Source: Gracilariopsis chorda
Taxonomy: Eukaryota > Rhodophyta > Florideophyceae > Gracilariales > Gracilariaceae
NCBI GenBank assembly: GCA_003194525.1
Contig: NBIV01000128.1
Span: 1-64,000 of the forward strand
Length of the DNA: 64,000 nucleotides
Direction of reading: 5' to 3'
Below the pieces are notes generated by a model. The model was given only the letters and a program-made list of their open reading frames with translations. It made no database searches and had not been told where the DNA came from. Positions 1-64,000 of this stretch are shown here, one piece after another (the first letter of the stretch is position 1; each line of letters starts with the position of its first letter). The translations under genes and the position numbers were made by a program.

Positions 1-14
1 CGCTCGGCGGCAAC

Positions 15-5632: not shown

Positions 5633-5635
5633 TCC
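5601..5635 (-). promoter_or_regulatory. Predicted -1 ribosomal frameshift signal between gag and pol
   Basis: Pol lies in the -1 frame relative to gag. At the last gag codons the minus strand reads G GAA AAC followed by the TAA stop. Slipping back one base gives AAA CTA ACT GAG..., which stays open into pol. Twelve bases downstream of the heptamer is a perfect stem TCTCCC-CTTT-GGGAGA (5616-5601). The P-site slip is non-canonical because GAA to GGA mismatches at the second position, so efficiency is uncertain. There is no ATG at the head of the pol frame, which favours frameshifting over re-initiation. Confidence 0.65.
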
Positions 5636-7800
5636 GCCTTCGGCGGTGGGTTGGTTTCCTCGACAACGAGTGCTTCATCCCGTTGACGGGGGTTTCTATC
5701 CGCATAAGCGGGGGTTGCAACGGATGGTTGCGTGATCTCCCGAATCGGGGTGTATGAAGCTTGCCGCGCACGCGGGGTCTGTGGTAGGGCGTGAGAAAAG
5801 TCCGTTTTAGCACGGAGGTAGGAAGCCGTCGGGACGGAACGTTTCTCCTCTGGAGTGAGGGCCTCATAATTTGCCACCACCTTGGCCATATCCTTCAGTG
5901 AACAAATACACTGAGGAGAGGTATGGCCATGGGCATAGCACAGGTGGCAAATGAGAGCCAGCACCGCGACACGCGGATTATTATTCCGAGTATCGGAGAA
6001 GCGAACCGCAGGGCGGGTGTCAGTCCATCCAGGCCGTTGATAACGGGATTGACCGTTTGAAAACGGGAGTCGTTGGGGTTGAACCCGACTGTTACCACCG
6101 TATAGAACGGGATCTTCTGTTCCCGTATCATGGGTCATCTCCGTCGTTGACGGTAACTCACTGGTGGGTATCGACACACCATCCCCCTGCGCTAAATGCA
6201 CGGTATCAAATCCCTGTCCAGGGTTCCCATCCGCGGTGAGCGGGAGAGAGGAAGCTTCGCTTTCCAGCAACAACGCCTTGGCGGATTTAGACCGATTGTT
6301 CGGAGTTCTTGCACGAAGTGCATCCCCTTCCGCTCGAGCGTGTTGGACCAGCTCGAGGTAGGTGATCCTTCGCTTGTCCTCCCGATAACGGGTAACTAAA
6401 CTCCGGATTGCCGGGTCAAGACCATCAATGAACATGGTACTGCGCTCCCCAGCGGGGTATACGTTACCACATCTGTGGAAAGCCTTGTTAAGGCGCACCG
6501 AGTAATCGGTCTCGGTCTCTCCAGCACGCTGGCGTGTATCTCGCAAAGCGAGGATAGCCTGCTGAATAGCGGTGTTGGTGGCGTAGGAGCGCAGAAGATA
6601 CTGCACAGCCTCCGGCCAGCAAGTAACTCCTCCCTCGGAGGCGCGAGAAGATCCTCGGACAGAGGTGTATTGGTCCTCGGCCACTCCCCGTAAGAAATAC
6701 GGTAAAGCCAAATAGGCTTGTCCCTCATTCATACCGAGGATATCGGCCTCCGCTACAAAGCGGGATAGGAAATCCAGTACTAAGACTGGGTCCTCTCCAG
6801 TAAAATACTGGTTGCGGAGCGAGAGCTGCATTCGCTTAATGCATTCTCGCACCTTTCCCGTACCACGGGGCGTACGTCCAAGTGACGAATCTTCAAGCCG
6901 GTAGTACCGGTATGATAAAAGCTTCCGGTAATTCGGGTTTGTCGGTTTCAATTCCCGGAGACCGGGGTGTCTTCTCCCCTTCTGGCGGGTTCGGACCACA
7001 CCTTCAGTGGCCGATGACCGCTTCGAGCGGGAGGAGTAGCCTCGCTTCTCGTCCTCCGAGTCGGAGTCCGAGGAGCTCGAGCTAACCGAATGGTTTCGGG
7101 GTGAATCCGACGATGTCGAAGAATCGGAGTCCGAATATTTTCGGTGATGTTTCCGTCGGTGACGGCGTTTCTTCTTCCCAGCAAGCTGGTCGTTGTGCGA
7201 TGCCTCGTTTACCGGATCACCCGGGGATGGTTTGTCCATGAGGACGAACTGCTCCAGCGTCTCCAGGCGGGCACCAATCCGATCAAATCGGGCTTCAACT
7301 CCTTCGATGAAGGCGGCGGGTTGTCCCAAACTCTCCAACACGGAGTTGACGTCAGACCGTAAAATACGGAGCTCCTCGGCGACCTCCTTTACGGGGGTTG
7401 CCGAGACCACCTCTTGGAGGGATTTTAGTTCCCCTACAAGGGTGTCGTGGGCGGTCCACAGAGCGCGGACCTGGGATTCCAGGGAAGTCCCCTGGGGGGT
7501 GTTATCGCCCGTTCCACGGGGGCTTGAAGCCGCGACAGCGGGAGCAGGCCAGGGTGCCTGGGGCACTGCGGCAACAGCCGGAGTCGATGCTGCATTCCCC
7601 TGCGGGGGTGATAACGAGGGCAAAAGGAGGTTCCGGGGTTCCCGGTCGGGGGTATCATTCCGCGATGAAGCGGCGCCAGCACGGCTGGAACTTGTCCGTA
7701 TAGGGATACGGGGTACGAACCGAACTTCGGAAGTGTCCGCGTTGTCGCGGGAGCGACTACGCGTAACCACTGGCTCCGCGTCGGAGGGATTTCTCGACAT
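5626..7800 (-). CDS. gag: Gag polyprotein, copy A
   Basis: Intact 724-residue ORF starting at ATG 7800, 85 bases inside the PBS. It holds a basic, serine-rich N-terminus, a region with coiled-coil character (about residues 105-205), a Ser/Asp/Glu-rich basic patch (about 215-265), the retrotransposon capsid domain (about 290-480, containing ...YFTGEDP..., ...CWPEAVQYLLRSY... and ...RLNKAFHRCGNVYP...), and one CCHC zinc knuckle of the CX2CX4HX4C type (CHLCYAHGHTSPQC, near residue 615). It forms the virus-like particle and packages element RNA. It ends with TAA immediately after a slippery heptamer. The same domains occur in copies B and C. Confidence 0.92.
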   Translation of the reverse strand: MSRNPSDAEPVVTRSRSRDNADTSEVRFVPRIPIRTSSSRAGAASSRNDTPDREPRNLLLPSLSPPQGNAASTPAVAAVPQAPWPAPAVAASSPRGTGDNTPQGTSLESQVRALWTAHDTLVGELKSLQEVVSATPVKEVAEELRILRSDVNSVLESLGQPAAFIEGVEARFDRIGARLETLEQFVLMDKPSPGDPVNEASHNDQLAGKKKRRHRRKHHRKYSDSDSSTSSDSPRNHSVSSSSSDSDSEDEKRGYSSRSKRSSATEGVVRTRQKGRRHPGLRELKPTNPNYRKLLSYRYYRLEDSSLGRTPRGTGKVRECIKRMQLSLRNQYFTGEDPVLVLDFLSRFVAEADILGMNEGQAYLALPYFLRGVAEDQYTSVRGSSRASEGGVTCWPEAVQYLLRSYATNTAIQQAILALRDTRQRAGETETDYSVRLNKAFHRCGNVYPAGERSTMFIDGLDPAIRSLVTRYREDKRRITYLELVQHARAEGDALRARTPNNRSKSAKALLLESEASSLPLTADGNPGQGFDTVHLAQGDGVSIPTSELPSTTEMTHDTGTEDPVLYGGNSRVQPQRLPFSNGQSRYQRPGWTDTRPAVRFSDTRNNNPRVAVLALICHLCYAHGHTSPQCICSLKDMAKVVANYEALTPEEKRSVPTASYLRAKTDFSHALPQTPRARQASYTPIREITQPSVATPAYADRNPRQRDEALVVEETNPPPKAEN

Positions 7801-7884
7801 GAGAAAATACCGTTACGACGGGAAACGATCACGGAACTTCCGGTGAATGAAAACAAACCTCGTAAGAGGGAAAGCAAAAACCGA

Positions 7885-7902
7885 TTCTAGGTCGGGAGAC
7901 CA
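7885..7902 (-). other. Primer-binding site, copy A
   Basis: Three bases inside the 5' LTR end, the minus strand reads TGGTCTCCCGACCTAGAA, complementary to a tRNA 3' end terminating CGGGAGACCA. The implied acceptor stem has C1-G72 with discriminator A73, as in eukaryotic tRNA-Tyr; yeast tRNA-Tyr ends the same way. The tRNA identity is inference; the PBS position is well supported and repeats in copies B and C. Confidence 0.8.
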
Positions 7903-7905
7903 CTT

Positions 7906-8712
7906 TGTGGTGCAATGCCCCAAAGGGGAAAAACACCGAAAGACGTCCGGGATCTTCCTCTCACGAGGTGAACCCAGTTGGGTAGAGCCCTCCCAGAGGT
8001 GTCACGGCGAAGCCGGTTTGTAAGACCAGGGACACCTGTCGCGACTCGCGCAGGGAGGTGAAGGCGAAGAATCGGTATCCGCGTGAGCGGGGTGTGATCC
8101 TCAGTAGAGGTATGTTTCCACGTAAGTGGGGGTGTGTGAGCGGATGCGCACACGAGGGCCGCGGATAGCGGGAGGTGCTACCCTAAAAAGGGGAAAGAGG
8201 AAGGACGAGTGGGTCGCGAGAGCGACGAGTAGATACGGCAATGCCGGTGGACAGGACTCCCTATACAGGGCGAAACACCAATATGACTGGAACAATTAGT
8301 ACTCCCAATGATGGGTCTCCTTTAGATGTGCAAGGGGGGTGAACTTCCGTACGCTACGGTGCTTCCCTCCAAGGAGGAGTTGAGAACACGCGGAGGCGGT
8401 CAAGCTCAGAGCCAATTCCCCAGGTTGGGGTCCCTTGTTGGGGAAGGTTTACTGGTGCGACGGCAGTGCGCCGTCGCACTAAGTACTAGCTTCCCAGAAA
8501 TGGGTGTGAAAATAATAAATAAAATTAACTAAAATACTCCACATTCCGTGGCAACATCCACTACTGTGGCCAACCGCCAATTGACCCAAAACCGTGTCCC
8601 ACGTGTCCATACCCACCGTAGTGGGGCGTAGTTCATATACACACTACACAACCGATAATATCGGGAAAACAATCAAGTACCAAGAATCCCTCCCTGAGGG
8701 CGTTGCACTTCA
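7906..8712 (-). repeat. 5' LTR of gypsy copy A (807 bp)
   Basis: Boundaries come from comparison with the 3' LTR of copy B (52939-53765): similarity begins at TGTGGTGCAAT and ends at CACTTCA, giving TG...CA ends on the element strand. Flanking sequence differs on both sides: PBS on the inner side, hAT coding sequence on the outer side. It is 20 bp shorter than the copy B LTR because of an indel near 8195. It contains many short inverted repeats, the largest at 8455-8479. Confidence 0.9.
8455..8479. repeat. 10-bp-arm hairpin in the LTR
   Basis: Perfect inverted repeat GTGCGACGGC / GCCGTCGCAC with a 5-base loop, the longest of many inverted repeats in the LTR. It is identical in the copy B 3' LTR (53508-53532). 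The solo LTR at 38305 keeps it with one wobble and one mismatch among its nine outer pairs. It lies just downstream of a T/A-rich stretch on the element strand, so it may affect transcript start, end or folding; function unknown. Confidence 0.8.
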
Positions 8713-9865
8713 TAACTTTTTGTAGTATACCACTTATCCACTTCACACTACCCAGATCCTGCATAAGTAGATTTGCCACATGAGTCTGGTCTTGACAGGA
8801 CAACAGATGATTGTGCTTGTCGATTAATAACTGCTTGGCCTTCACGCAACAGCTTGTGTTGTCGCTCACGACAGCACAAATGTTCACCATAGACCCAAAC
8901 GAACCCATGAACCCTTCAAGTGCAGAGGCATAGAACTGAGCTCCGCACTTTTGTGAACCAGTGTAAATGGAACGCAAGAAAAAAGTCTTGCGTACACGCT
9001 CCACCCCAGTGATCGAAAGCAAAACATTAACCACGCTTTCATTGGAAATATCAGTCCATCCATCAACCAAAAGCGTGCCGTAACTGCTGTTGAACGCAGA
9101 AGTTATGGAGCACTTCACTCTATTAAGCATAGAGTCCTAGTAGGCAGACAAATTCCTCTCTGACATCTTGTACGCCGTTGGAAGTTGCTCCGACAACTCT
9201 GGATTCAGAAGTTTAGCGATCTGGAAGAAAAGATCCTTCCCGGGACGGCGTGAAAGCGTGGAAAAAGGAAGCATGTTGTTGATAACAAACCGTGTTACCA
9301 GCTCATTTAATGTTGTCCGTTTTCGATATGATTCTTCGCTTTCCACCCTCACATTCACTGGCAGAGTAGCATCAGAACCGAAATCCAGTGTGCCGTAATT
9401 GGAATCGTTTCGTTGGATAGTATTACTAGGTTGAATGTTTTCACGGCTAAGATACAAAGATGATGAGCGCGGCTTTGTAGGAGTGATTTGCGTTCCAAAA
9501 AGTTGCGAATGTCCTCTTCTGCGTTTGCGGTCATGCTTGAGTAATGTATTTTCCTGTAGAAGTCTCGTTTTAACGTCTTTTGGGACTTGAGGACACCAGA
9601 GAAGGTGATGGCCAAGTTGAGTAGCATTGTCTACTTTCGCATACGATTGCCATTCGCAGCTCACGCAAGTTGTGAATAAAGGCGGTGAGTCGGTTGAAGT
9701 TTCATGCAAAGAATTCGGGTCTTTTGGAATACGAGTGTCTCTGCGACGTTCGAACCATTCGGACAGATACCATTTTCTCTTTTTGCCTCCACTAGAGGTC
9801 GTTTCGTTTTGGTTGCTGTGTGCTAATGCCGTAACCGAGACATCATTAAAATTAGAACCTTCCAT
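8713..9865 (-). pseudogene. hAT transposase, N-terminal part, cut by gypsy copy A
   Basis: From ATG 9865 the protein has a basic N-terminus with a possible degenerate BED-like Cys/His region (CVSCEWQSYA...HHLLWCPQ). It then runs into the DUF659 region typical of hAT transposases (NNMLPFSTLSRRPGKDLFFQIAKLL, then SSYGTLLVDGWTDISNESVVNVLL and VVSDNTSCCVKAKQLL). An in-frame TAG at 9137-9139 interrupts it. At 8712 the reading frame passes straight into the gypsy LTR and stops at 8633, adding about 26 LTR-encoded residues. The catalytic C-terminal half lies beyond copy A and outside the window, so it is broken twice. Confidence 0.85.
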
Positions 9866-18360: not shown

Positions 18361-18399
18361 TATCGCGGTGGTGCCATATGTTCAGCGAATTCGGTATGA

Positions 18400-27977: not shown

Positions 27978-28019
27978 TGCAATGAAACAATGAAAGTGAC
28001 AGGTTCGCTTCGATTTTTC

Positions 28020-29150: not shown

Positions 29151-29297
29151 TCTACTATCCACTCACCGTCCTACTGCGTCTGCAACCGCAAACAAACGTT
29201 TCCAAAGCCAGCAAGCCGCAGGGATACCCGCGCGGCTGGCCTTTCAGTAGCAACCCGTTTCTAACGTTGACCTTCTGCCTCCGCTTTTCCAGTACCA

Positions 29298-32050: not shown

Positions 32051-32168
32051 AAATGTTACAACTTTCTCGTACTTCGCGGGGGAAGGGCATGAACTGGAGG
32101 AGCTCACAACCTGAGATCCTCAAAATGCCTTGCAATGGTACTTTTTGGCACCGTAATGGGCAGTTCAA

Positions 32169-39981: not shown

Positions 39982-39986
39982 CTACA
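39982..39986. repeat. Target site duplication CTACA, left
   Basis: Identical to 51342-51346 on the far side of copy C. Five bases is the normal duplication for Ty3/gypsy integrase. Confidence 0.9.
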
Positions 39987-40703
39987 TGTAGTGCAACGCG
40001 TTTGCAGAGGGTTATCGCATATTGCAACTAATATACACGGAGTTACAGCATCACGGCAAATGCGTTCGATATATGAATTGGAGGTCAATTACTCGACGCC
40101 GAGGTTACTTGCACATTTTTAATGGATATTAGTTTACATCCAACTTTCGCACACGTATCACACGTGTATTGTTTTTTGCACCTTTTATCTAGGAATAGCT
40201 ATATTCTATTTAGCTAATTTAATATAGCTGCCTGACAGTGTGCCGGCACCGTCTATACTTAGGCAGGCGACCGTGACCCCACGGCAGGGGAGTAAACACA
40301 AGAACCGAGTGTTTGGCTCTGACCCAGTAACCCCTGGTGCTTGGTAAACTCCATCGGAGAGCCAACGCTTCGTGTGGGACTAGTTACTCTAACTCGTAGT
40401 ATCTCGAACTGCATTCCGCGTCGCGTTATCATCCACTCTGCGTGTTCCATTTTCTCGTCTATACATCCCCTGATACGGGCAGCAACCCCGTGTTTGCTGG
40501 TGATTCCTTACTTCTTTCTCGCTTTTCTCGGGCTTCCTTTCCGGTTATACCGTACACCAGCACGCCAGTCGTGAAGGTGAGCCTCGGACTTACACCCGAC
40601 TAGCGCACCCACCGCAGGTTGCTCCGTTTACTGTTGCTACCCTTTAAAGAGGAGGAACCGAACGCCTTTGCGTGTCTTTCTCTTTGCAGAGTATTGAACC
40701 ACA
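39987..40703 (+). repeat. 5' LTR of copy C
   Basis: Starts TGTAGTGCAACGCG and ends ATTGAACCACA. Pairs with 50626-51341. The ends correspond to TGAAGTGCAACGCC and ATTGCACCACA of copies A/B. Confidence 0.92.
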
Positions 40704-48750: not shown

Positions 48751-50543
48751 TCATGCGTCCGATGGACGCGATGTGGACGGAACTGGAACCGGCGCAGCCG
48801 GAGGGGGCACAAGAGCTGGCGCCGAAGCTACAGACACTGAAGGTCTTGCTTTATGGCCCATCGGATCTCCCGTAGACACGGGAAAGTTTCCGTAATCATC
48901 ATCAAGAACAACATCCAACATTGGATCGTGCACATCCGCCGTGTCAAAGAACTCGTCTGTAACGACAAACCCGGTTGGGTGTCCCGCAGGGGTGGTTCTT
49001 TCCACATCTCGAAGAATGAAGACCTCGTCTTGAGTAATTCTCACCCTCGTCCACGGATCGTAATGGATGAAATCACCCGCTAGGGAAGTCCTCCCTCCCA
49101 ATGATCGGTCACTTTTATCCAGCTCATTTTCACGAGCCGCCCAGTCCACTTCCACTGTCTTCCAATCGATATTATCGATAACCTTGAGGAGACGTACTAC
49201 CTCTGAAAAGTGTCCGCTGCTGCCGAATGGGATTCTGAGATCCAGGGACCAGATGCAACGACGAAGAGTCGGTGAGATATACCAAAGACGATATTGGTCG
49301 TAGACCTCTTGGAGAAGATGTACCGCCGTTTGCGCAGCTCATTCCGTGTTCAAAACAGACCACCATCTGATGAAGGAGTTGCTCATTAACTGGCTACCAA
49401 CGTACGTGATGCAAGGCAGAAGCTCTACGTAGCATCCTCGGCACACCTCAGTGGAGCCCCAAGCGAATGGAATCGCAACCTATCTTCCACGCATGTGGCG
49501 CGGGCGAATCCTATCCGCTTCAGTGTTCTGATAAGGTATAAGATATTCCCAACGGCACCGGCTTCTTCGTTCGAAACGGATCATCCTTTGAAGGTACGAC
49601 GACAGTGATTCACTTGGAAGATATCGAAACTACGCAAGCAATAGCGAACGCGTCCAACACAATATCTTGTTGTGCACAGAGACAACCTGGTACTGTTCAA
49701 CGGTGTTCGCGAGACGCACAAGATTCTCTCCATTTGGGATCTCTCCGAGATTTCGGTAGAAGGCCACGTCGAAATGGAAGTTAGTTAGAATTGAACGGTC
49801 TGAATAAGCTCTGTGTAGCGGCTGATGCGCCACCTTGATGAGAGCTGCTCGCGCGTTCACATCGTTTTCCCCACGATAATGGATAATGGACAGCCAAGGA
49901 ACGGCGATCCGGTGTGACTAGTTAATTTTAGAAGTCAGATAGACATGCAACTCACCCGCTAACCGGCCTAAACAATCTGCATATTATTCCATTGTCATCG
50001 TGAGGCGGACCCGTGAGGGTGAAACCAAGGAGCCCGTAGGTACGGCACTTCTTTCTGTCAAGAATAGACCGCTTCTAACTATTCATAAGATGCCCATGGT
50101 CCCGGAGGCAGGTTTCCTATTATCAATTGTTGTGAAGGCCCCTGCCACCTCTCTGGATTCGGTTCTTGAGGCTGCATAGCAGATTGATAGACCTGCTGGG
50201 CGGGTTGGTAGCTGGATGGGTACGCCGCATCAGTCACTGAACGATGACTCGCTTGAGATAGAGGAGATGCGGTGAAGCCGCTTACGAGTTGCGGAGGATA
50301 TCACTGCATCGCAGGTTGAGTTTCAGCGTTGCTGGGAGCTGCCGATGGGTTCTGACCGTTTGAAGTCCGGCCTTGCGGCTAGGTAGCCCAGTTGTTCGGA
50401 TTGATGTTCATAGAGACCAGAGGAATCAGAGATGAAGCTGCGGATGACGAAAAAGAAGTTTGTAAGCTTGGAGGCGAAGATGTAATCCCGTTGCGCGGAA
50501 AAGACCTGTGCTGATCGCGAGAAGACGAGACAGAATCAGCCAT
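48751..50543 (-). pseudogene. Antisense ORF3, old version in copy C
   Basis: Runs opposite to gag-pol. ATG at 50543 lies 82 bp inside the 3' LTR, and the last segment ends at 48751. Segments align in order with ORF3 of copy B: 49860-49640 (FHFDVAFYRNLGEIPNGENL against FGFDVSYFRTRREIGYGENL), 49490-49400 (EVCRGCYVELLPCITYVG against EACRGCYIELPPVLTYLG), 49370-49200 (VYDQYRLWY...SLDLRIPFG against AYDQYRLWF...NLDLRIPLG) and 49190-48870 (TSLAGDFIHYDPW against TALAGDFIYFDPW). Stops and shifts break it. Extent (1793 bp) equals that in copy B (1788 bp). Confidence 0.85.
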
Positions 50544-50612
50544 GCCAAGGAAACGGCTAAGTAGGCACGTGTTGCTGTATCGCTAGTTCCTTAAGAGGAA
50601 GTTTTCGTGCCT

Positions 50613-50625
50613 AGAGAGGGGAATA
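50613..50625 (+). other. Polypurine tract, copy C
   Basis: AGAGAGGGGAATA directly before the TG of the 3' LTR, the expected site for plus-strand DNA priming. Confidence 0.8.
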
Positions 50626-51341
50626 TGTAGTGCAAAGCGTTCGCAGAGGTTTATCGCATATTGTGACTCATATATACAGAGTTACTGCATCGCAGTGGAG
50701 ACGTTCGATATATGAATCGGAGTTCAATTACTCGAGGCCGAGGTTACTTGCACAATTTTAATGGATATTAGTTTACTTCCCACATTGGAGCACGTATCAC
50801 ACGTGTACTTGTGTTTGCACCTATTATCTACGAATAGCTGTATTCTATTTAGCTAATTTAATATGCTGCCTGACAGTGGGCCAGCGCTGCCTATACTTAG
50901 GCAGGCGACCGTGACCCCACTGCGGGGAAGTAAGCACAACAACCGAGTGTTTGTCTCTGACCCAGGAACCCCTGGTGCTTGATAAACTCCATCGTAGACC
51001 CAACGCTTAGTGCGGGACTAGGTACACCATCTCGTAGTATCTCGAACCGCATTCCTCGTTGCGTTATCATGCGCCCTGCGGGTTCCATTATGTCGTCTAT
51101 ATCTTCCCTGACACAGGCAGCAACCCCGCGTTCGCCGGTGTTTCCCTGTTTCTTTCTCGCTTTTCTGGCGCTTCCTTTCCATCTATACCGTACATTTGCA
51201 CGCCTATCATGACGGTGAGTCTCGTACTTACACCCAAGTAGCGCGCCCACCGCAGGTGGCTCTGTGTACTGTTGCTACCCTTTACTGAGGAGGATCCGAA
51301 CGCTTTCGCGTGTCTTTCCCTTGGCAGGATATTGCACCACA
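50626..51341 (+). repeat. 3' LTR of copy C
   Basis: 716 bp, TGTAGTGCAAAGCG to ATTGCACCACA. It differs from the 5' LTR at many scattered positions, indicating an old insertion. Confidence 0.92.
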
Positions 51342-51346
51342 CTACA
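51342..51346. repeat. Target site duplication CTACA, right
   Basis: Same five bases as 39982-39986. Confidence 0.9.
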
Positions 51347-51354
51347 CTGAAAAA

Positions 51355-51545
51355 TACGAAGGTGGTGCCTCGCGGCTTCAACGACATACGAGATCAGCCA
51401 GAGACGCCGGCTAAGCTTTATTGATAATCTGACTTTCAGGTTCAGTGAGACGTGTACGTTTACCCGCATCACAGAACTGCTGGCAAAGCCATTCACACAA
51501 ACAGCTGAAGTACTGGTCCATTAGCACACATTTGCGTTTGAAAAT
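51355..51545 (-). repeat. Copia LTR-like repeat hosting copy C
   Basis: Inverted relative to 34690-34880 and alignable over nearly 190 bp, including the AATAAAGC region. Copy C inserted at its edge. Confidence 0.6.
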
Positions 51546-51783
51546 GGCTATCCCTGCAGCTTATTAGAATAGCATATCATCAAGTGCACCAAATCCAGGT
51601 CAGTGCACTAAAATTGGTCGCTTTGGTGCATACAATTGGAAGCATTTGCTCAAAACTGATGATTTGCAGGTCGAAAAAACTATTCTATCGTAACAACGGC
51701 TCATATCATTTGAATTCTGATACAATAATCTGTTTTGCCACCATTTTCTCCATCGTACAGCCACTTCTCGTTCCCACCCGTCA

Positions 51784-52600
51784 TGCACATCTACTCACAA
51801 CAGCCTCGTGATTCCTTCCGAACCCCTGTACAACTCAAAGCTCCAGTCAGGAATCCACATGCCACCCAAACTCCTGTCTGCTTCAAAATACGGCGACCTT
51901 TCTCTCGATGGTCAAAGCGCACTCCTCGAACTCCATGGCGCCCCCATATCCATTCCAAAATGCGCCAAGCTTCACAATATTCCTTACTCAACGTTGCAAA
52001 GACTACATCGAAGGCAAAACAGTACCATATCTCCAAAAAAAGGGGACAACAACCTTTATACACAAGTACCGAGGATAAGCTAATCACCGAATCAACGCTC
52101 TCATCCTCACACAGCGGAACATCTTTTTCTAGAGTCGGTTTCAAAGATCTTGTGCAGCATATTTTCCGTTCGTTGCTGCATCATAGTAGATCAAAACTTC
52201 CATTTTAAGACGACAGACCAGGTGATGGTTTTGTTCGGAACGTCTTGAGGCGATATTCCCAAGCTTCGCTTGAGCGTCGTTCAAACTTGGAAAAGCCGCG
52301 GATATTGGAGATGCTCCCCACAAGCCATGCCAAGCTGTATGCCCGTCTCATCCACGTTTATAAGGGGTATAAGATAACATCTGCTGCCCAGATATTCAAT
52401 ATGGGAGAGAGAGGCTTCTTGAAACGAACGGAATCATGGTTGCGTGCAAAAGCTCTGTTTGAGTCAAAGGGAGGAAGCAATTCTGTCGAACTGAAATGGG
52501 AAGCAAATGCCCAACACGTCACTATCATACCTGTCGTCTCTGCAGACGGTCGGGCGTGGAGCTCGTTGGCCGTATTGCCTGGAAAGCAAGCAAAGTATCG
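51784..52600 (+). pseudogene. Pogo-like (Tc1/mariner superfamily) transposase remnant
   Basis: Begins with a psq-type helix-turn-helix (APISIPKCAKLHNIPYSTLQRL, about 51930-52000). After frameshifts the start of the DDE_1 domain follows (AAQIFNMGERGF, then HVTIIPVVSADGRAWSSLAVLPGK, about 52380-52590). In active relatives the first motif is I-[YF]-N-[ML]-D-E-x-G-F. Here the catalytic Asp position is Gly, so the copy is dead irrespective of its frameshifts. An old gypsy LTR cuts off the remainder. Confidence 0.7.
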
Positions 52601-52938
52601 TGACTCAGCTCCCCCTTTTGTTTTCCCTTTAAAGAGTGACTTTCCCGCTACACACAGCTCGTGTTCGCGCGTGCCACTACCGTGGAAACTTCACCTCTCT
52701 AAAAGACGACCAATCCCCGTAAACCGCTCCTGCGGATACTTTGTTCTCGTCTCAACCTCCCTGTGCAAGTCGCGACGGGTGGCTCGGCCTTACAACCAGC
52801 CGTAGTCGTGCACTCCTGGGAGGGCTCTACCCAACTGGGCTCACGAGGAAAGATCCCGAGCATCTTTGGGTGCACTCGCGCTTCCGATCATTTCGGTACA
52901 GGTACGGAGCGTACTGCACGTTCACAGTATTGCACCTC
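52600..52938 (+). repeat. Old inverted gypsy LTR fragment
   Basis: Matches the LTR of copies A/B in the opposite orientation: GTGGAAAC, CTGCGGATAC, CAACCTCCCTG..GAGTCGCGAC-type text, CTGGGAGGGCTCTACCCAACTGGG, and an end ATTGCACC. It is strongly diverged. Copy B inserted at its very end, so two LTR tails of opposite orientation now abut and form an 8-bp-arm palindrome (52930-52950). Confidence 0.75.
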
Positions 52939-53765
52939 TGTGGTGCAATGCCCCAAAGGGGAAAAACACAGAAAGACGTTCGGGATCTTCCTCTCACGAG
53001 GTGAACCCAGTTGGGTAGAGCCCTCCCAGAGGTGTCACGGCGAAGCCGGTTTGTAAGACCAGGGACACCTGTCGCGACTCGCGCAGGGAGGTGAAGGCGA
53101 AGCATCGGTATCCGCGTGAGCGGGGTGTGATCCTCAGTAGAGGTATGTTTCCACGTAAGTGGGGGTGTGTGAGCGGATGCACTCACGAGAGCCGCGGATA
53201 GCGGGAGGTGCTTCCCTAAAAAGGGGGAAAAGGAAGGGCGAAGAGGAGGAAGAGAGGATGATGTGAGTCGCGAGAGCAACGAACAGATACGGCAATGCCA
53301 GTGGACAGGACTCCCTATACAGGGCGAAACACCAATACGATTGGAACAATTATACTCCCAAGGATGGGCTTCTTTAGATGTGCAAGGGGGTTAGATGTCC
53401 CGTGGTTTACGGCGTTTCCCTCCAAGGAGGAGTAGAGTACGCGCGCAAGCGGCAACAACTAGAGCCAATTCCCCAGGTTGGGGTCCCTTGTTGGGGAAGG
53501 TTTACTGGTGCGACGGCAGTGCGCCGTCGCACTAAGTACTAGCTTCCCAGAAATGGGTGTGCAAATAATAAATAATATTAACTAAAATACTCCACATTTC
53601 GTGGCAACATCCACTACTGTGGCCAACCGCCAATTGACCCAAAACCGTGTCCCACGTGTCCATATCCACCATAGTGGGGCGTAGTTCATATACACACTAC
53701 ACAACCGATAATATCGGGAAAGCGTTCAAGTACCAAGAATCCCTCCCTGAGGGCGTTGCACTTCA
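52939..53765 (-). repeat. 3' LTR of copy B (827 bp)
   Basis: Element-strand ends TGAAGTGCAACG and ATTGCACCACA; matches 7906-8712. The five bases outside it (52934-52938, ACCTC) should be the target duplication, but the partner lies beyond the window. Confidence 0.92.
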
Positions 53766-53778
53766 TATCCCCCCCTAA
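53766..53778 (-). other. Polypurine tract, copy B
   Basis: On the element strand TTAGGGGGGGATA immediately precedes the TG of the 3' LTR. Confidence 0.8.
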
Positions 53779-53820
53779 GATGGGAAAACGACCGCGGACG
53801 CGGAGGATTCCCAGACGAAA

Positions 53821-55608
53821 ATGGGTGATAAAAGCGCGTGCTCTGTCTCCGGTTCTCCGGTAAATCCCTCTGCACCAGAGTCACCGAGCGCACAAACGAC
53901 AACAACAGCCACCCTCGAAAAGGGAGAAATGAACAACAACAACAACATCAACGACCACAACCAACCTCCGAGGCCTCTCGGGTGATACAACACCGGTTTG
54001 CGGTCAGTTCCCCTGCCTCAGGCCGATCGACATCCGGTACAACCGGGGAATATGGCTGCTGCAGCCGACCATCCCTTCGCACTAGCACCTTCGGTGGGAT
54101 CCTCCGCAACCGCTCCGGCATTCAACTGGCCAACCTACAACACCCTGGTGGGGCTCAACCCGATGAATCGTAATCACGCGTCGTGCCTGCGCCTTGCCCC
54201 GTGGTTTCACCCGGTCGCTGTCCTCAATGAGGGATTGGTCACCGCTTATGCGGATGGCTCAGACACCCTTCCGGGGGATCTGCCCAGAGCAGTCACCACA
54301 TCGTGGGATTGGCGTCACCGGATCGCGATTCCGCGTCACCACCTCCGAAGAAATTCGGGCGAGACCGTCGCTGCGGCGCAGACCGCGTTGACGCGCATGG
54401 CGTACCAACGGCAGAGCCGGGCTCCATTCGATGTACCGGTCCCACCGGAGTTTGGCTTTGACGTTAGCTACTTCCGCACTCGCAGGGAGATTGGGTACGG
54501 CGAGAACCTGTTCCGCCTCGAGACCCTCGCTTGGAGGAATTTCCCCGCAGCGCGGCAAGAAGCCCTTTGCTGGGAGCGACCGATTATTGGGGCGGAGTTC
54601 AGGTACCTTCCCTGGCAATACCGGTCCAACTTTCTCCAAAACTTCATCCGCTACGAGCGGCGTTGGCGATCCCGATTCGGGTATTTTATCCCGTATCAGA
54701 ACGTGGAGATAGAGCGGATTGCGCCGCCTCACCGACTAGGTCGGTATGTAGCACTCCCCGAGTGGTGGCGCTTCCATGAAGCCTGCCGGGGGTGCTACAT
54801 AGAACTCCCGCCGGTACTTACGTACCTCGGTTCGCTGCTCATGCAGGATCCCCGGTCGGGGTTGTGGTCCGTAGTGGTTACGGAGTGGGCGGCCCGCACT
54901 GCGGCTTATATGCTCAACGAGGCGTATGACCAGTATCGTCTCTGGTTCCTTCAATCGCGTGTGCGGGCAGCGATCCGAAACCTGGATCTTCGCATCCCCC
55001 TTGGGGGCCAGGCCAACAATGAATAGGTCCTCCAATTACTTGGGTACATCGACAGCGTTAGCTGGAGTGAGGTCCGGCTGGAGCAAAGCGGTCGTCTGGA
55101 TGGCGGCAGCGGTAACACCGGTGGTCCGGGACTCGGTAGAAACACCGCCCTTGCGGGGGATTTTATCTACTTCGACCCCTGGGAGTTCCGGGAAATTTCC
55201 TCCGAGGAGGCGCGCGAGCTTCGCGATGCGCCCCGGCATGTGCCGGAAGACCACCCAGTGGGGTACGTCGATTCTGACGACTACTACCGCGCATACGGCG
55301 GAGATGACCCAATGGTCGATAACGAACCGGAAGAACCCGGGGAGATGGACGTAGAGGAAACCGGCGCTAGCGCGGAAGCTTTCCCAGAGGGGGTATCTCC
55401 AGCCGAGCCGGCTGCTGACCCTTCGGCGGCAAGTGCCGGACCTTCTATCCCCAGCGGGGTGACGGCGAATGAAAACGAGATCATCGCACGTTTTCTCCGG
55501 GGTGCCGGTCTTAGCACTGCCGAGGTATCGGGGGATGTCACCACCATGGCGGACGCGTTGGACTACCGCCTTGCTGGGCGTTACGCCCCGGACGATGGGG
55601 GTGAGTGA
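53821..55608 (+). pseudogene. Antisense ORF3 of gypsy copy B (two in-frame stops)
   Basis: Runs opposite to gag-pol, starting at ATG 53821 only 56 bp from the inner edge of the 3' LTR and ending 192 bp before the end of pol, so the two genes converge. One frame covers 1788 bp, interrupted by TGA (53983) and TAG (55024); internal ATG 54052 opens the long uninterrupted part. The encoded protein has a Ser/Thr/Asn/Gln-rich N-terminus, a central 330-residue Trp/Tyr/Arg-rich globular part (e.g. NWPTYNTLVGLNP, LPWQYRSNFLQNFIRYERRW, EACRGCYIELPPVLTYLG, AYDQYRLWFLQSRVRAAI), a GDFIYFDPWEF motif, and an acidic Pro/Ala tail. No signal peptide, membrane span or known domain is recognisable. Conservation in old copy C shows it is a genuine family gene of unknown function. 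Confidence 0.8.
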
Positions 55609-55799: not shown

Positions 55800-58700
55800 T
55801 TACCCAACTTGGGCATTAACCAGCGTGGCTGGGGCTGCAGTTCCCGTTTGAGGGTGGTATCGCAGGACCTGCGACCGTGGGAGGTGTTCCATTGGCTCCC
55901 ACGTATCCCCACTGGGGTCGTACCCGTACCAGCGGACGCCGTATTGTAGAATACCATCCTGGTCCCAGGTGTGTCCGACAAGTCGGTCTACTACGAACTC
56001 TCGTTCGTAGACCTGCCGGCCGTGCCGGGTGGTGGTTGTACTTCCTTGCGGGGGCTGCCCGCTGTGCAGTATAATGTCCCTTAGCAGGGTGTTCGGCGAT
56101 AACTCCGGCGTTGCCGTGCGCTGTGATAGAGAACACTGCTCATGCGGGAAGATATCCCTCAAGAGGGTGTGTGGTGCCATGGTTTTCACCGGCAAGTCAT
56201 TCCCCATTGGGGCAGGTTCATTTCCGCTTTCGCGGTATTGCGGGCGAACCGCCAGTCAGCGGGGGACTTGGGCTCCGCCTTCGCGGTTGAGCTCACGAAC
56301 CGCGAGTTTGCGGGAAGATGACCGCTCCTGTGGAATCGGCATTTCCACAATCCCCTGGGGGGTCCCGTGCGACACGGTGATTGGGTGGCAAACCGCCTCC
56401 CTGCCAGGCGCACGAGCGCTCTGCACCATACATTCCGGCGATGCCGTGGTGTCCCCGGCTACTGACGGGTTGCCTGGGGCTAACTCCGGTACACCGGTAT
56501 TTTGGTCAAAATTCCCCTTTGGGGGGTGCCGGACAGGTGCCGATGACACCCTTTTCAGGGGCTTGGCCGCTAAGTGCGGTGCACCGTCTCCACGCGGAGG
56601 AGCAGCGTCCGGTATGACCGGTTTCGAGCGTGCGATGGCGTGCGCTTTTTCCGAGTTCCTCGGTTCTTCCCCGCAGCGTTGCGGGAGGTGGCGCAAATTA
56701 TTCCCCGGAACGGGGGCTCCAATTCCGTCGACGATGGGAGGCGTTTCCGGCGCTTGCGGGCCAGGGCCTGAACCGTCGGCTGCGGCTTGGCTGCCTTTTT
56801 CCCCAGGAGGGGTGTGGGAATTTCCCAGCGGCGCTGGTGTATCTGGGCGCCTCTTCTCCGCAGGGCGCGGGTCTGATCGACCTGATTGAACCGCTTCCGC
56901 GGAGACTTCCGCCAACGGCGGCTTCGAGGCATCGCCCTGCTCAGGGGATTGAGGGCGATCGTCGCCGTACTACCGTAACGGGGATCCCTCCCTGACAGGG
57001 GTGTGCGGTGACTGCGTTTCAACTTCCCGTTGCGACGGCGATATCGTTCCTCGAAAACGAGTGTTCTCCTCCCCCTTCTTAGACGGGGCGGCGGGATAAG
57101 GGATAACATTCCCCGCCTGGCGGGTATAAATGCGCGCCAGTGGAGCAGACGTGGTAGGGGCGGGCGCTGAGAGGCCCGAATTACCCGGCTGAGCCGGTGA
57201 GTCCGACAGAGTCGGTAGGTCTGAGAGTCCCCGGCTGGGGTGTGGTAGTACCGTAGGCCTAGTACTCCCGGATGGTTCCGGTGTTGCAGAGTTTGTAGAA
57301 ACGGGGTTGCCTGGATCCAGGACTACCTCTGACGAGGTAGGAGGGGCAAGGACAACACGATCACGGGAAATCCGTTCGTGCGTGTCGCCCATCTCTACCA
57401 CGAAAGTGTCGGTGTTTACAGAGATGAACATGAATGGTCCATCCGCCACAGGCGAGAGTTTATGGCGCTTCTCTCGTTCCGGGTTGTAGTACTCCTTCCT
57501 GATGAAGACGTAGTTATTCGCCCGAATCGGGGACGGTTTCCCTCGCAAGCGAGCATGAAAATCCGGCTTGTAAGCGGCTCGGGCCCGTGCCATAGACTTC
57601 CGCGCAGCGGGGACCAGCTTGGAAAGCCATTGCTTCCATTGCTGCCGGTAGATACCCACGGATGGGAAATTGTCCAAGGTAGCTTGGGGTTCCAGCGCCA
57701 CAGGCGGGGGTGTTCTAGATAGAACCAACTCGAATGGCGAAACTCCGGTAGTCCGGTGTACCTGCGTATTGTACGCGTAGGTTACCGCATCAGCGTAGAG
57801 ATCCTAATTCGTTGGGTGTTCAGCGACGTAGGAACGTAACGCCGCGAGTAACGTCCGGTTAAACCGTTCAACTTGCCCATTACACTGGGGGTGGTAGGTA
57901 GTCGTGAACAAGTTCTTGACATCCAGGATGCGACAAATATCCTGGAAGAACTTGCTCACGAACTGTTTCCCGTTATCGGAGAGCACCTCCACAGGGGGAC
58001 CGTAGACAAAAATCCAGTGCCTCACCAGAGCCTGGGCCACCGTGAGAGCGGTTATCCTCCGAAGAGGGACAGTCCGTACCAGCTTAGAAAAGTGGTCGGT
58101 AATGACAAGTAGGAACTTGTTTCCACGTTTCGTGGTGAGTAATGGTCCGAGAATATCGATCGCGATAAACTTGAGCGGCGCCCTTGCGGGGAATAGTTTC
58201 ATCTTCTTCGCATTTTTGCGGAGCTTGACGCGATTCTTCGCGCATTCGCTACAGAACCGCACAGTTGCGTAGCAATCCACCGCCATGGCCGGCCAATAGA
58301 AATCCCTTCGCAGGGTTAGGTAGAGTTTCCTCCCACCTGGGTGACCTCCGATGGGGGCGTAGTGTGATAGATGTAACACCCGCGATTGCAGGGAATGTGG
58401 TACCACAATCTGTGGGCGGGCTTCGACCTTTCTTGCGAGGTAGCCTTTGTCGTTTACCCCGAAAGGGAGATCTTCACCACCGTTGATACGGGCACGAATT
58501 CTCGTACAGAATGGGTCGCCGAATTGTTCTCGGATCATTTCTTCCGGTGATACCGGTACAAAGTTTCTCGGTAACGGGTTCTCAGATTTATCTCGCGATG
58601 CGAGTAGTTCGTCAAAGTCAGCATCCTCGTCCCAGTTTTCTGGCCCAGCCTCGACGGCACATTCCGGATCATCCGGGTCTATGGCCATGAAACATGGGAC

Positions 58701-61282
58701 TTCATCATCCTCCGTTGGGAGTGCTTCCCCACTTGTGGGTAACCGCGAAAGAGCGTTGGCTTGGGTGTTCTGCGCGCCCTTTTTATAAATGACTTGAAAG
58801 TCATATTCCACGAGGCGGAGTCTCCAGCGCATGAGGCGTCCCGACGGGTCGGAGATATTCATCAACCACCTCAATGAGGAATGATCCGTGTACATGGTGA
58901 AGTGAATTCCCATAAGGTAGGGGCGCAGAGTGGTCATCGCCCATACGACGGCGAGGCACTCTTTCTCCGATACGGAGTAGTTCCGCTCATGAACATTGAG
59001 CGAGCGCGACCAATAACCAATTGGATGTCGTTCCCCCTCGGGGGTGGTTTGAAAAAGAGCAGAACCGACTTGGTAGTCGCTCGAGTCCGTATCTACGGAG
59101 TATGGCAACCCAAGTTTTGGGAGATGTAGCATTGGTGCTGATGTGACAGCCTCCTTTAAGGAGTTGAAGGCTTCCGATTGCTCGGGCGTAAATGTTCCCA
59201 GTTTTGGGGGGTTCCCCTTTCGCAACAACGCGTTCAGGGGCGCCGCAGTATCCGAAAAGTTCGGGATAAACCGTCGATAGACGTTGACCAGCCCCAGAAA
59301 GGAGCGCAGTTCCGTTTGAGTACGGGGCTCTTTCGCCTCGATAAGGGATTTGACTCGAGCTTTCTCGATCGCTAACCGTCCAGGACGGATGATGTGACCC
59401 AGATACTTCACAGTATCCGTGAAAAACTCGCATTTCCTCAACTTGAGGGTAATTCCCGCATCGCGGAGAACGGTCAGCACGTCTCGGACGTGAGTGAGAT
59501 GGTCGTCCAACGAGTTGGAGAAGATGATAATATCATCAAGGTAGACCAGACAACTCCGCCACTTAAAGCGGTTGAGTAGAATATCTACTGCACGCTGAAA
59601 GGTGGCGGGGGCGTTGGTTAACCCAAATGGCATCCGCTTGAAGCGGTACGTTCCTGCGTGGCAGGTTAATGCGGTTTTGTCGCGATCCTCCTGTCTGACA
59701 GGTACTTGCCAGTATCCCTATGGGCATCAAGGGCTGTGAACACGGTGGCGTCTCCAAGGGAGTCAATGCACTCGTCCATACGAGGGATAGGGTACGTGTC
59801 CCTAACGGTCACGGCATTGAGCCGGCGGTAGTCGACACAGAACCTCCAGGTTCCGTCGGCCTTTAAAGCCAGTACAACTGGGGATGCCCAGGGTGATTGA
59901 GCGGGCTCAATCACACCTGGGCGGAGCATCTTGTCCACTTCGGACTGCTCCTCTTCCCGAGCTTTCGGACCTGCCCTGTGAGGAGGTGGTGCAACCGGTC
60001 GCGCACCGGGGATTAAATCGATCCGGTGTTCCGTTGCCTTAATCTCGCCAAGCGAGCCATCCCACATTGTGGTGAATTCCCGTAACATGGTACGGAGAAT
60101 GTCGCGGTGCGACTCTGGCACGTGGCTAAATTCCAGCGCTTCAAGTGCCTTTTCCGGATCAATCCGGTCGTTGCTCGATGGAGCATTGTCCTGTGGAACA
60201 GGTGTGGTCCGCAATTTCGAGTTACTCGGTATGTTCGACGCGGAAGTAGCGGTTTCCTCCCCCTCCTTATACTTGACGTCTTCGGACGGCGGGGCGAACT
60301 CCTCAGAAGAGGTGGTAACTCCGAGTACATCGGCGGCTGTCATCTTCGTTGGCAGCATTCCCATAGGATGGGGGGTTACACTCCCAATTACTTGGTGTTT
60401 TACCAGATACTGGGGGTGTTTGCCAAGGTTGGCAACCAATATCCGGAAAGGAACATCCGGGGAAATGGAGACAATTCCATTACCCAGCGCCAGCTGGGAT
60501 TTCTCGTACAACGAGGCGAGGGGTTGTATAACCCGAAGACCGTGTTGACGGGAATTTACCTGCACCCAGACTTGGCACTCGGCCGGTATAGAAACCGAGG
60601 CAGCGACGCGGAGCTTGGTGGACTCGCGGGACGCGGGCGGTGGTTCCTGCGCAGCAGGGAGCGGAACTTGTTTCCGAGAGGACCTCTTTAGCGGGCGGCG
60701 AACAATCGGAACCGACGATCCGTCGTCAAGTTCTACACACCTGAGGCGGGGCCTGATTGCGTCGACAAATCTGTCGCAGTAATCATATCCCAGTATGACT
60801 GGTGCGGCCAATGAACGGCAAACGATGAAGTCCAACTTCACCACAGAGGTACCAAGTCTCACGACGAGGTCCACTGTGCCCACCGTTTGTAACGGATTGT
60901 TGTTCGCATCCGACATGTCGGGGACCGCGTCAGAGCGGATACGAGACCGCAGAAGCGGGGGTAACAATGATTCCACAACAAAGTTGGGGCCTGCACCTGT
61001 ATCCAGGACGGTGAGAAACCTCACCATAAACTGGGGATCAAGACCAAGGTCGGCATAGACCTTATAATTGCGTTTGGCCAAGACCAAGACTCTACCGGGG
61101 ATCCGGGGATTTTTACTCCGTATCCACGGGCGACGCAACACACCGAGGTGCGCAGAGTCCGCGTCAGCGGTGTCTTCCCTCGAGAGGACTTTCACCGGGG
61201 AGCGAGGTGAGGACGCCTCGGGCGCCAACAGCCTCGTTCTTGAGGACGCCTCTCCCAAAGGGGAGACTCCCTCAGTTAGTTT
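55800..61282 (-). pseudogene. pol: Pol polyprotein with chromodomain, copy B (one frameshift, three stops)
   Basis: From the frameshift site the frame carries protease and the RT N-terminus to about 59720. A one-base deletion there (compare 4062-4080 of copy A) shifts the frame. RT (YLDDIIIFS), RNase H and integrase continue in the next frame from 59633. Nonsense changes follow at 57804 (Trp codon to TAG), 56970 (Glu codon to TAG) and 56256 (TGA). The chromodomain is intact at about 56018-55858 (YEREFVVDRLVGHTWDQDG, then VRWYGYDPSGDTWEPMEHLP), ending at TAA 55800. Chromodomains of this class guide integration to marked chromatin. The copy is not autonomous. Confidence 0.9.
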
Positions 61283-61285
61283 TCC
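61251..61285 (-). promoter_or_regulatory. Predicted -1 frameshift signal, copy B
   Basis: Identical to the copy A signal: GGAAAAC at 61285-61279 before the gag TAA, and a TCTCCC-CTTT-GGGAGA stem 12 bases downstream. Confidence 0.65.
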
Positions 61286-63450
61286 GCCTTCGGCGGTGGG
61301 TTGGTTTCCTCGACAACGAGTGCTTCATCCCGTTGACGGGGGTTTCTATCCGCATAAGCAGGGGTTGCAACGGATGGTTGCGTGATCTCCCGAATCGGGG
61401 TGTATGAAGCTTGCCGCGCACGCGGGGTCTGTGGTAGGGCATGGGAAAAGTCCGTTTTAGCACGGAGGTAGGAAGCCGTCGGGACGGAACGTTTCTCCTC
61501 TGGAGTGAGAGCCTCATAATTTGCCACTACCTTGGCCATATCCTTCAGTGAACAAATACACTGAGGGGAGGTATGGCCATGGGCATAGCACAGGTGGCAA
61601 ATGAGAGCCAATACCGCGACACGTGGATTACTATTCCGAGTATCGGAGAAGCGAACCGCAGGGCGGGTGTCAGTCCATCCAGGCCGTTGATAACGGGATT
61701 GACCGTTTGAAAACGGGAGTCGTTGGGGTTGAACCCGACTGTTACCACCGTACAAAACGGGGTCTTCCGTTCCCGTATCACGGGTTATCTCCGTCGTTGA
61801 CGGTAAATCACTGGTGGGTATCGACACACCATCCTCCTGCACCAAATGCACGGTATCAAATCCCTGTCCAGGGTTCCCATCCGCAGTGAGCTGGAGTGAG
61901 GAAGCTTCGCTTTCTAGCAACAACGCCTTGGCGGATTTAGACCGATTGATCGGAGTTCTTGCACGAAGTGCATCCCCTTCCGCTCGAGCGTGTTGGAGCA
62001 GCTCGAGGTAGGTGATCCTCCGCTTGTCCTCCTGATAACGGGTAACTAAACTCCGGATTGCCGGGTCAAGACCATCGATGAACATGGTACTGCGCTCCCC
62101 CGCGGGGTATACGTTACCACATCTGTGGAAAGCCTTGTTAAGGCGCACCGAGTAATCGGTCTCGGTCTCTCCAGCACGCTGGCGTGTATCTCGCAAAGCG
62201 AGGATAGCCTGCTGAATAGCGGTGTTTGTGGCGTAGGAGCGCAGAAGATACTGCACAGCCTCCGGCCAGCAAGTAACTCCTCCCTCGGAGGCGCGAGAAG
62301 ATCCTCTGACAGAGGTGTATTGGTCCTCCGCCACTCCCCGTAAGAAATACGGTAAAGCAAAATAGGATTCTACCTCATTCATACCGAGGATATCGGCCTC
62401 CGCTACAAAGCGGGATAGGAAATCCAGTACTAGGACTGGGTCCTCTCCAGTAAAATACTGGTTGCGGAGCGAGAGCTGCATTCGCTTAATGCATTCTCGC
62501 ACCTTTCCCGTACCACGGGGCGTACGTCCAAGTGACGAATCTTCAAGCCGGTAGTACCGGTATGATAAAAGCTTCCGGTAATCCGGGTTTGTCGGTTTCA
62601 ATTCCCGGAGACCGGGGTGTCTTCTCCCCTTCTGGCGGGTTCGGACCACACCTTCAGTGGCCGATGACCGCTTCGAGCGGGAGGAGTAGCCTCGCTTCTC
62701 GTCCTCTGAGTCGGAGTCCGAGGAGCTTGAGCTAACCGAGTGGTTTCGGGATGAGTCCGACGATGTCGAAAAATCGGAGTCCGAATATTTTCGGTGGTTT
62801 TTCCGTCCATGACGGCGTTTCTTCTTCCCAGCAAGCTGGTCGTTGTGCGATGCCTCGTTTACCGGATCATCCGGGGATGGTTTGTCCATGAGGACGAACT
62901 GCTCCAGCGTCTCCAGGCGGGCACCAATCCGATCAAATCGGGCTTCAACTCCTTCGATGAAGGTGGCGGGTTGTCCCAAACTCTCCAACACGGAGTTGAC
63001 GTCAGACCGTAAAATACGGAGTTCCTCGGCGACCTCCTTTACGGGGGTTGCCAAGACCACCTCTTGGAGGGATTTTAGTTCCCCTACAAGGGTGTCATGG
63101 GCGGTCCACAGAGCGTGGACCTGGGATTCCAGGGAATTCCCCTGGGGGGTGTTATCGCCCGTTCCACGGGGGCTTGAAGCCGCGACAGCGGGAGCAGGCC
63201 GGGGTTCCTGGGGCACTGCGGCAACAGCCGGAGTCGATGCTGCATTCCCCTGCGGGGGTGATAACGAGGGCAAAACGAGGTTCCGGGATTCCCGGTCGGG
63301 GGTATCATTCCGCGATGAAGCGGCACCAGTACGGCTGGAACTTGTCCATATACGGATACGGGGTACGAACCGAACTTCGGAAGTTTCCGCGTTGTCGCGG
63401 GAGCGACTACGCGTAACCACTGGCTCCGCATCGGAGGGATTTCTCGACAT
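61276..63450 (-). CDS. gag: Gag polyprotein, copy B
   Basis: Intact 724-residue ORF from ATG 63450, equal in length and nearly identical to copy A gag, with the same capsid region, Ser/Asp-rich patch and CCHC knuckle CHLCYAHGHTSPQC. Differences are scattered substitutions (e.g. GQAYLALPYF in A against VESYFALPYF in B). Because gag is intact in both A and B while pol is damaged, these copies may still supply particles or be mobilised by a partner copy. Confidence 0.92.
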   Translation of the reverse strand: MSRNPSDAEPVVTRSRSRDNAETSEVRFVPRIRIWTSSSRTGAASSRNDTPDRESRNLVLPSLSPPQGNAASTPAVAAVPQEPRPAPAVAASSPRGTGDNTPQGNSLESQVHALWTAHDTLVGELKSLQEVVLATPVKEVAEELRILRSDVNSVLESLGQPATFIEGVEARFDRIGARLETLEQFVLMDKPSPDDPVNEASHNDQLAGKKKRRHGRKNHRKYSDSDFSTSSDSSRNHSVSSSSSDSDSEDEKRGYSSRSKRSSATEGVVRTRQKGRRHPGLRELKPTNPDYRKLLSYRYYRLEDSSLGRTPRGTGKVRECIKRMQLSLRNQYFTGEDPVLVLDFLSRFVAEADILGMNEVESYFALPYFLRGVAEDQYTSVRGSSRASEGGVTCWPEAVQYLLRSYATNTAIQQAILALRDTRQRAGETETDYSVRLNKAFHRCGNVYPAGERSTMFIDGLDPAIRSLVTRYQEDKRRITYLELLQHARAEGDALRARTPINRSKSAKALLLESEASSLQLTADGNPGQGFDTVHLVQEDGVSIPTSDLPSTTEITRDTGTEDPVLYGGNSRVQPQRLPFSNGQSRYQRPGWTDTRPAVRFSDTRNSNPRVAVLALICHLCYAHGHTSPQCICSLKDMAKVVANYEALTPEEKRSVPTASYLRAKTDFSHALPQTPRARQASYTPIREITQPSVATPAYADRNPRQRDEALVVEETNPPPKAEN

Positions 63451-63534
63451 GAGAAAATACCGTTACGACGGGAAACGATCACGGAACTTCCGGTGAATAA
63501 AAGCAAACCTCGTAAGAGGGAAAACAAAAACCGA

Positions 63535-63552
63535 TTCTAGGTCGGGAGACCA
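63535..63552 (-). other. Primer-binding site, copy B
   Basis: Same 18 bases and 3-base offset from the LTR as in copy A. Confidence 0.8.
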
Positions 63553-63555
63553 CTT

Positions 63556-64000
63556 TGTGGTGTAATGCCCCAAAGGGGAAAAACACCGAAAGACGTTCGG
63601 GATCTTCCTCTCACGAGGTGAACCCAGTTGGGTAGAGCCCTCCAAAAGGTGTCACGGTGAAGCCGGTTTGTAAGACCAGGGACACCTGTCGCGACTCGCG
63701 CAGGGAGGTGAAGGCGAAGAATCGGTATCCGCGTGAGCGGGGTGTGATCCTCAGTAGAGGTATGTTTCCACGTAAGTGGGGGTGTGTGAGCGGATGCGCA
63801 CACGAGAGCCGCGGATAGCGGGAGGTGCTACCCTAAAAAGGGGGAAAAGGAAGGGCGAAGAGGAGGAAGAGAGGACGATGTGAGTCGCGAGAGCAACGAA
63901 CAGATACGGCAATGCCGGTGGACAGGACTCCCTATACAGGGCGAAACACCAATATGATTGGAACAATTATACTCCCAAGGATGGGCTTCTTTAGATGTGC
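63556..64000 (-). repeat. 5' LTR of copy B (partial)
   Basis: Inner 445 bp of the LTR, matching 52939 onward with few differences, running off the window. The similarity of the two LTRs (e.g. the same 20-bp segment absent from copy A) indicates a fairly recent insertion. Confidence 0.9.

Follow-up and report, generated by a model that had tools for sequence, protein, structure and literature searches.

An antisense open reading frame conserved in chromodomain Ty3/gypsy elements of the red alga Gracilariopsis chorda

Elements in the window

The window analysed here is a stretch of 64,000 nucleotides, the first 64 kb of one contig in the 91.3 Mb assembly of Gracilariopsis chorda (1081 contigs) in which the genome searches were performed. 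It contains LTR-element copies designated A, B and C (Table 1). Copy B, which has gag-pol on the minus strand, is a chromodomain-bearing Ty3/gypsy element. It displays the gypsy order of domains, a C-terminal chromodomain and, as read by eye, LTRs with TG...CA ends, a primer-binding site and a polypurine tract. Pfam families RVT_1, RT_RNaseH, Integrase_H2C2 and rve were found in this order in one frame and Chromo in the last frame, and Pfam gave no credible match for the gag frame. The reading of pol is split by stops and by a change of frame, and a long spacer separates integrase and chromodomain. The LTR pair is 97.1% identical over 448 bp (K2P 0.030).

A frame of 595 codons, ORF3, separates the chromodomain from the 3' LTR; its position and its layout on the strand opposite to gag-pol are confirmed as given in the initial annotation. 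ORF3 starts 55 bases inward from the 3' LTR and its far end lies about 190 bases from the end of the chromodomain frame. The ORF3 of copy B itself contains in-frame stops at codons 55 and 402, which had gone unrecorded in that annotation.

Copy A belongs to the same family, and the contig starts immediately beyond the site of its ORF3. Copy C, whose gag-pol is on the plus strand, is older than copy B according to the divergence of its LTRs (K2P 0.164 against 0.030). The same frame had been thought to persist in copy C from 50543 to 48751. A degenerate antisense relative was indeed found within this interval, but when read whole in the conserved frame the interval is interrupted by nine stops, and the ATG at 50543 belongs to a different frame.

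Table 1. Positions of element features within the window
Feature	Position	Strand	Remarks
Copy A	1..8714	-	same family as copy B, about 91% identical
Copy C 5' LTR	39986..40703	+	gag-pol of copy C on +
Copy C ORF3 relic	48913..49983	-	42.5% identity to intact B-family ORF3, E 3e-86
Copy C 3' LTR	50625..51341	+	LTR pair K2P 0.164
Copy B 3' LTR	52939..53765	-	TG...CA ends on minus strand, edges read by eye
Copy B polypurine tract	53766..53779	-	between 3' LTR and ORF3 start, by eye
Copy B ORF3	53821..55608	+	595 codons and stop, antisense to gag-pol
Copy B pol, chromodomain end	55803..56255	-	convergent with ORF3, about 190 bases between
Copy B pol, RT, RNase H and integrase	57807..59717	-	frame differs from protease/N-terminal RT part
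Copy B pol, protease and N-terminal RT	59669..61324	-	motifs by eye
Copy B gag frame	61279..63450	-	capsid-like stretch and CCHC-like knuckle by eye
Copy B primer-binding-site candidate	63531..63552	-	22 bases, begins TGG; by eye, without matched tRNA
Copy B 5' LTR	63556..64000	-	cut at window end; inner edge by eye

Openness of ORF3 among copies of the family

Copies of the B family were collected by DNA search, 30 being fetched out of 40 scored from 817 first-pass candidates, with the copy of the window counted in. Seventeen of these 30 show neither stop nor indel across the 595 codons, and the ATG is aligned in 16 of them, the start codon being altered or unaligned in the remaining one. Two further copies lack a single base at codon 586 and have no other defect; the remaining eleven, that of the window among them, are broken. 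In parallel, 60 of the 74 best-scored places of the family, a listing that favours good matches, are free of in-frame stops over the matched stretch. The initial annotation had regarded the lack of an open frame in any young copy as a reason for doubt; open frames are present in closely similar copies, which are so probably young.

ORF3 in other families of the genome

Genome searches with the ORF3 proteins P0006, P0003 and P0005 gave 68, 82 and 98 best matches, respectively. Among the matches listed, the main ones outside the query's own family share about 36-71% identity with it, and frames of 560-690 codons are numerous. The matched stretch is uninterrupted by in-frame stops in 52 of the 68 best-scored places for P0006 and in 86 of the 98 for P0005, again in listings that favour good matches.

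The P0006 and P0005 listings were merged into 125 ORF3 places and compared with the 150 best of 3346 candidate places for Pfam rve, allowing a pairing distance of at most 6 kb. In 66 of the 67 ORF3-integrase pairs found within 6 kb, the two are on opposite strands and ordered alike, the integrase sitting past the 3' edge of the matched ORF3 stretch at a distance of 2.06-2.59 kb. The one deviating pair involves an integrase that lies near the ORF3 on C536 and on the same strand; this ORF3 also has a properly placed partner. Such a partner is missing among the places listed for 84 of the 150 integrases and for at least 59 of the 125 ORF3 places. The antisense layout therefore extends beyond copies B and C within the element group, as judged from the position of integrase.

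Selection on ORF3

Variants were compared among 48 distinct copies from 60 fetched loci. The ratio of non-synonymous to synonymous changes (N/S), relative to neutral, is 0.85 for singletons, 0.66 for variants found in two or three copies and 0.22 for those found in at least four, in a set that favours intact copies since half of the 60 loci were picked by protein score. The variants found in at least four copies comprise 31 synonymous and 16 non-synonymous changes and no stop. In the same way, the 30 DNA-found copies alone gave 0.85, 0.58 and 0.25 for these classes (Fisher test of singletons against common variants, p 4.5e-4). A ratio near neutral across many copies had been named beforehand as an argument against a conserved gene, and the shared variants are far from it (0.22-0.25).

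The constraint is unevenly spread along the frame. For variants present in at least two copies, N/S is 0.29 in the core, 0.32 in the C-terminal tail and 0.76 in the N-terminus, and the corresponding singleton values are 0.78, 1.18 and 0.82. The adjoining pol spacer is looser than ORF3, its common variants having an N/S of 0.75; in the chromodomain the sites are too few for N/S to be judged. Mean dN over mean dS within the B family is 0.34. Between families, synonymous sites are near saturation (pS 0.73-0.79) with pN at 0.34-0.44.

The low N/S of shared variants, with singletons at 0.85, means that ORF3 was evolving as a protein during the active period of the family. A gene that is kept by purifying selection in active elements and then left to near-neutral decay once inserted would produce this variant pattern. 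Running counter to the simplest reading, three stop variants are common to two or three copies each, at a rate near neutral, and some copies with a broken ORF3 may thus have been copied on, perhaps in trans. Altogether, the suggestion that a conserved antisense gene exists in an algal Ty3/gypsy group has held up, on the evidence of open copies, of purifying selection on shared variants and of a layout repeated in several divergent families.

The ORF3 protein and its relatives

Nine relatives were found in protein-database searches in which 8000 candidates were scored each time: two from G. chorda, one from Gracilaria domingensis and six from contig sequences. One of them, P0003, is the NCBI hypothetical protein BWQ96_03215 of G. 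chorda, with a 100% genome match over residues 1-491. Aligned relatives share 35-61% identity. The alignment of nine members delimits a core at about residues 119-455 of P0001, and the columns that are invariant with at least seven members present are rich in Arg, Pro, Leu, Gly, Trp and Tyr. The core is followed by a tail with a DPMVD-like motif in nine of the ten members examined (it is absent in P0009), and then by a last conserved stretch. Past this motif the tail is acidic in eight of the nine motif-bearing members and mixed in P0006. All ten members examined contain short basic runs, which are most numerous in P0006. No membrane-span-like stretch was found in P0001, whose 19-residue hydropathy maximum is 0.95.

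No credible match to the ORF3 proteins was obtained in Pfam or among PDB sequences. The earlier impression that the protein resembles nothing recognisable thus stands for Pfam, for PDB sequences and, with 8000 candidates scored per search, for the protein database beyond Gracilariales and the six contig-encoded relatives. Comparison with gag and pol of copy B gave no credible similarity either. Structure prediction from only eight and nine sequences was poor (mean pLDDT 37 and 46), and no nucleic-acid-binding fold was recognised in these poor models. By the searches made, the ORF3 proteins form a new family, although the kind of genomic place that they occupy is known.

Proposed role of ORF3

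ORF3 is almost certainly real as a coding antisense accessory gene, carried by a group of chromodomain Ty3/gypsy elements in Gracilariales red algae. It is probably transcribed antisense from the edge of the LTR: a promoter in the 3' LTR or at its inner edge would drive ORF3 in the direction opposite to gag-pol, so that the protein could be made apart from the gag-pol mRNA. Its product would be a soluble protein composed of a disordered N-terminus, a conserved core of about 340 residues and a usually acidic tail. The most likely role for such a protein would be that of a nuclear regulator associated with nucleic acid or chromatin and acting on the transcription, silencing or export of the element, a best guess offered tentatively and at somewhat less than an even chance. 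It may act in the manner of the antisense proteins of Grande, Retand or HTLV, a likeness of working that entails no claim of kinship. Taken as a whole, the combination of accessory gene, antisense transcription from the LTR edge and nuclear regulator is evenly poised between being right and wrong. A bolder version, in which an undescribed family confined to Gracilariales chromoviruses would be expressed from an antisense promoter in the 3' LTR and would control or shield the element in trans from the nucleus, as an independently evolved HBZ-like circuit and one reason for the burst of red algal retrotransposons, is considered doubtful.

Other functions have to be weighed against that of a regulator, a particle factor and a silencing suppressor being live rivals; activator, repressor, silencing suppressor and particle factor would fit the data alike. 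A structural or particle component that is packaged with Gag, or a factor for movement within the cell that is packaged likewise, would suit a large protein with a strongly conserved core, and the tools applied gave no functional signature for or against it. The lack of credible similarity to gag or pol of copy B speaks against this option, and antisense transcription would uncouple the dose of ORF3 from that of gag-pol, which would better fit a regulator; a particle role is considered unlikely. A comparably low likelihood is given to a suppressor of host chromatin or small-RNA silencing, which would itself be one form of regulator. Pairing between an antisense mRNA and the genomic RNA would attract siRNAs, and a gene kept all the same may repay this cost, a reasoning prompted in part by a remark on double-stranded RNA in PMC7264820; against it, neither a credible Pfam domain nor a fold was recognised.

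That ORF3 is a captured host gene, or the gene of a nested transposon, carried as cargo is quite improbable. Its orientation opposite to gag-pol would suit an origin by insertion, but it occupies a like position in divergent families and protein searches that scored 8000 candidates each found no relative with a known place outside such elements, the context of most relatives being unseen.

There is hardly any chance that the frame is a by-product, namely non-coding antisense sequence, or a mere reflection of another frame, that chance or base composition has left open. In favour of this idea, the window's own ORF3 bears its two stops, GC is high locally (0.60 at 54-56 kb), and the sense strand of copy B shows three consecutive segments in one frame (214, 99 and 158 codons). 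Moreover, when the common variants are scored in the other five frames, one sense-strand frame, which has its third positions in common with the ORF3 frame, is also low, at 0.32. This sense frame is nevertheless broken: against the 595 codons of ORF3, the longest sense segment within it reaches 214 codons in copy B and 158 in L006, an intact copy, and the remaining four frames give values of 1.46 to 6.0, without any low-ratio signal. Protein matches also bridge families whose synonymous sites are near saturation. The 17 open copies out of 30, the N/S of the variants and the protein-level matches across families all contradict a by-product.

An envelope-like gene, which the place after pol would suit, is just as hard to credit given the antisense orientation and the lack of a membrane-span-like stretch in P0001, since such a gene would be a sense frame with a transmembrane stretch, barring some other anchoring in the membrane.

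Comparison with known antisense genes

The accessory gene proposed here has counterparts in plant LTR elements, in which antisense ORFs between pol and the 3' LTR, termed aORF-3R, are described for Grande (gene23), RIRE2 and PvRetro13 (PMC7264820). In that account they occur in most copies of a family and are conserved, without an established function, and the Grande antisense protein is reported as nuclear and as having its own promoter (PMC7264820). ORF3 shares with them its place, its orientation, its keeping in most copies and its conservation as a protein: both copy B and the relic of copy C have it antisense between pol and the 3' LTR, and it is conserved in most copies. It differs from them by its red algal host, its chromodomain element and the absence of a credible Pfam domain, the comparison with gene23 and RIRE2 being one of descriptions only.

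The TRP28 antisense ORFs of Retand are likewise situated in the region between pol and the 3' LTR; they are described in nearly all recently active elements and proposed to be a regulator (PMC11963269). They and ORF3 are both antisense in this region, Retand being a non-chromovirus. PF04195 (TRP28) gave no match in nine ORF3 members with E up to 10, in a test limited by the HMMER filters, which drop most matches above E of about 0.1. In fungi, Boty of Botrytis cinerea is described with an antisense accessory ORF at a like place (PMC7264820); its host is fungal and it is likened to ORF3 by description, not by sequence.

Outside these elements, the HBZ and APH genes of HTLV are antisense genes expressed from the 3' LTR, presented as mostly nuclear regulators, and an antisense promoter in the 3' LTR is described for some retroviruses (PMC10186651). 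The likeness to ORF3 resides in an antisense gene at the 3' LTR, the promoter of ORF3 being putative, and Pfam scans of the ORF3 proteins revealed no bZIP family. The ORF3s of LTR elements in bdelloid rotifers, among whose types are env-like, GDSL esterase and DEDDy exonuclease proteins (PMC5408684), resemble the algal one as extra ORFs beside gag and pol; none of these three domains was detected by Pfam in the ORF3 proteins scanned.

The algal ORF3 family looks unrelated to the known antisense proteins and is now found in red algal chromoviruses. The algal case is unusually clean, with many closely similar open copies, several divergent families in one genome and a selection signal confined to shared variants, so that conservation, domain mapping and strand-specific expression lend themselves to direct tests. 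As its protein resembles nothing described, ORF3 is a good subject for learning what the backward-running genes of such elements do. Antisense extra ORFs occupy this place in plant and fungal LTR elements (PMC7264820) and now in red algal ones, which suggests that the antisense layout has been favoured repeatedly, with different proteins.

An annotated ORF3 protein

The annotated Gracilariopsis chorda protein BWQ96_03215 is itself an ORF3, the frame lying antisense to gag-pol in these Ty3/gypsy elements, and it is encoded at contig C30:292265-293737. Sister copies of this locus are present on contigs C231, C219 and C2. In these copies, matches to the protein run up to residue 491 and restart at residues 479-480 after 24-27 bases, and the gene model therefore appears to leave out a short stretch that the sister copies have kept.

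Other features of the window

In copy B, the pol spacer is under weak constraint, with a ratio of non-synonymous to synonymous common variants of 0.75 relative to neutral. The complement of the primer-site candidate, as judged by eye, would extend into a tRNA T-loop.

Features in the window
Feature	Position	Strand	Description
Ordinary host-type gene cluster	11112-19341		HLH, ARMT1-like, Gcd10p, UPF0176/rhodanese, five-RRM protein
ORF run	28001-30758	+	strong GC skew
DDE_Tnp_4 transposase frame	30767-32107	-	446 codons
LTR-like pieces	38302-39580		~68-71% like LTRs of copies A/B and C
Long spacer before chromodomain, end of pol	56255-57803	-	~400 residues
Primer-site candidate	63531-63552	-	22 bases, by eye

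Within the host-type cluster, the five RRM stretches lie in one protein. GC skew reaches -0.318 at 28-30 kb, across the plus-strand ORF run, whose longest ORF (486 codons) had no Pfam match at E 0.01. The transposase frame belongs to a DNA transposon, perhaps of the Harbinger type, and the LTR-like pieces are remnants of families related to copies A, B and C.
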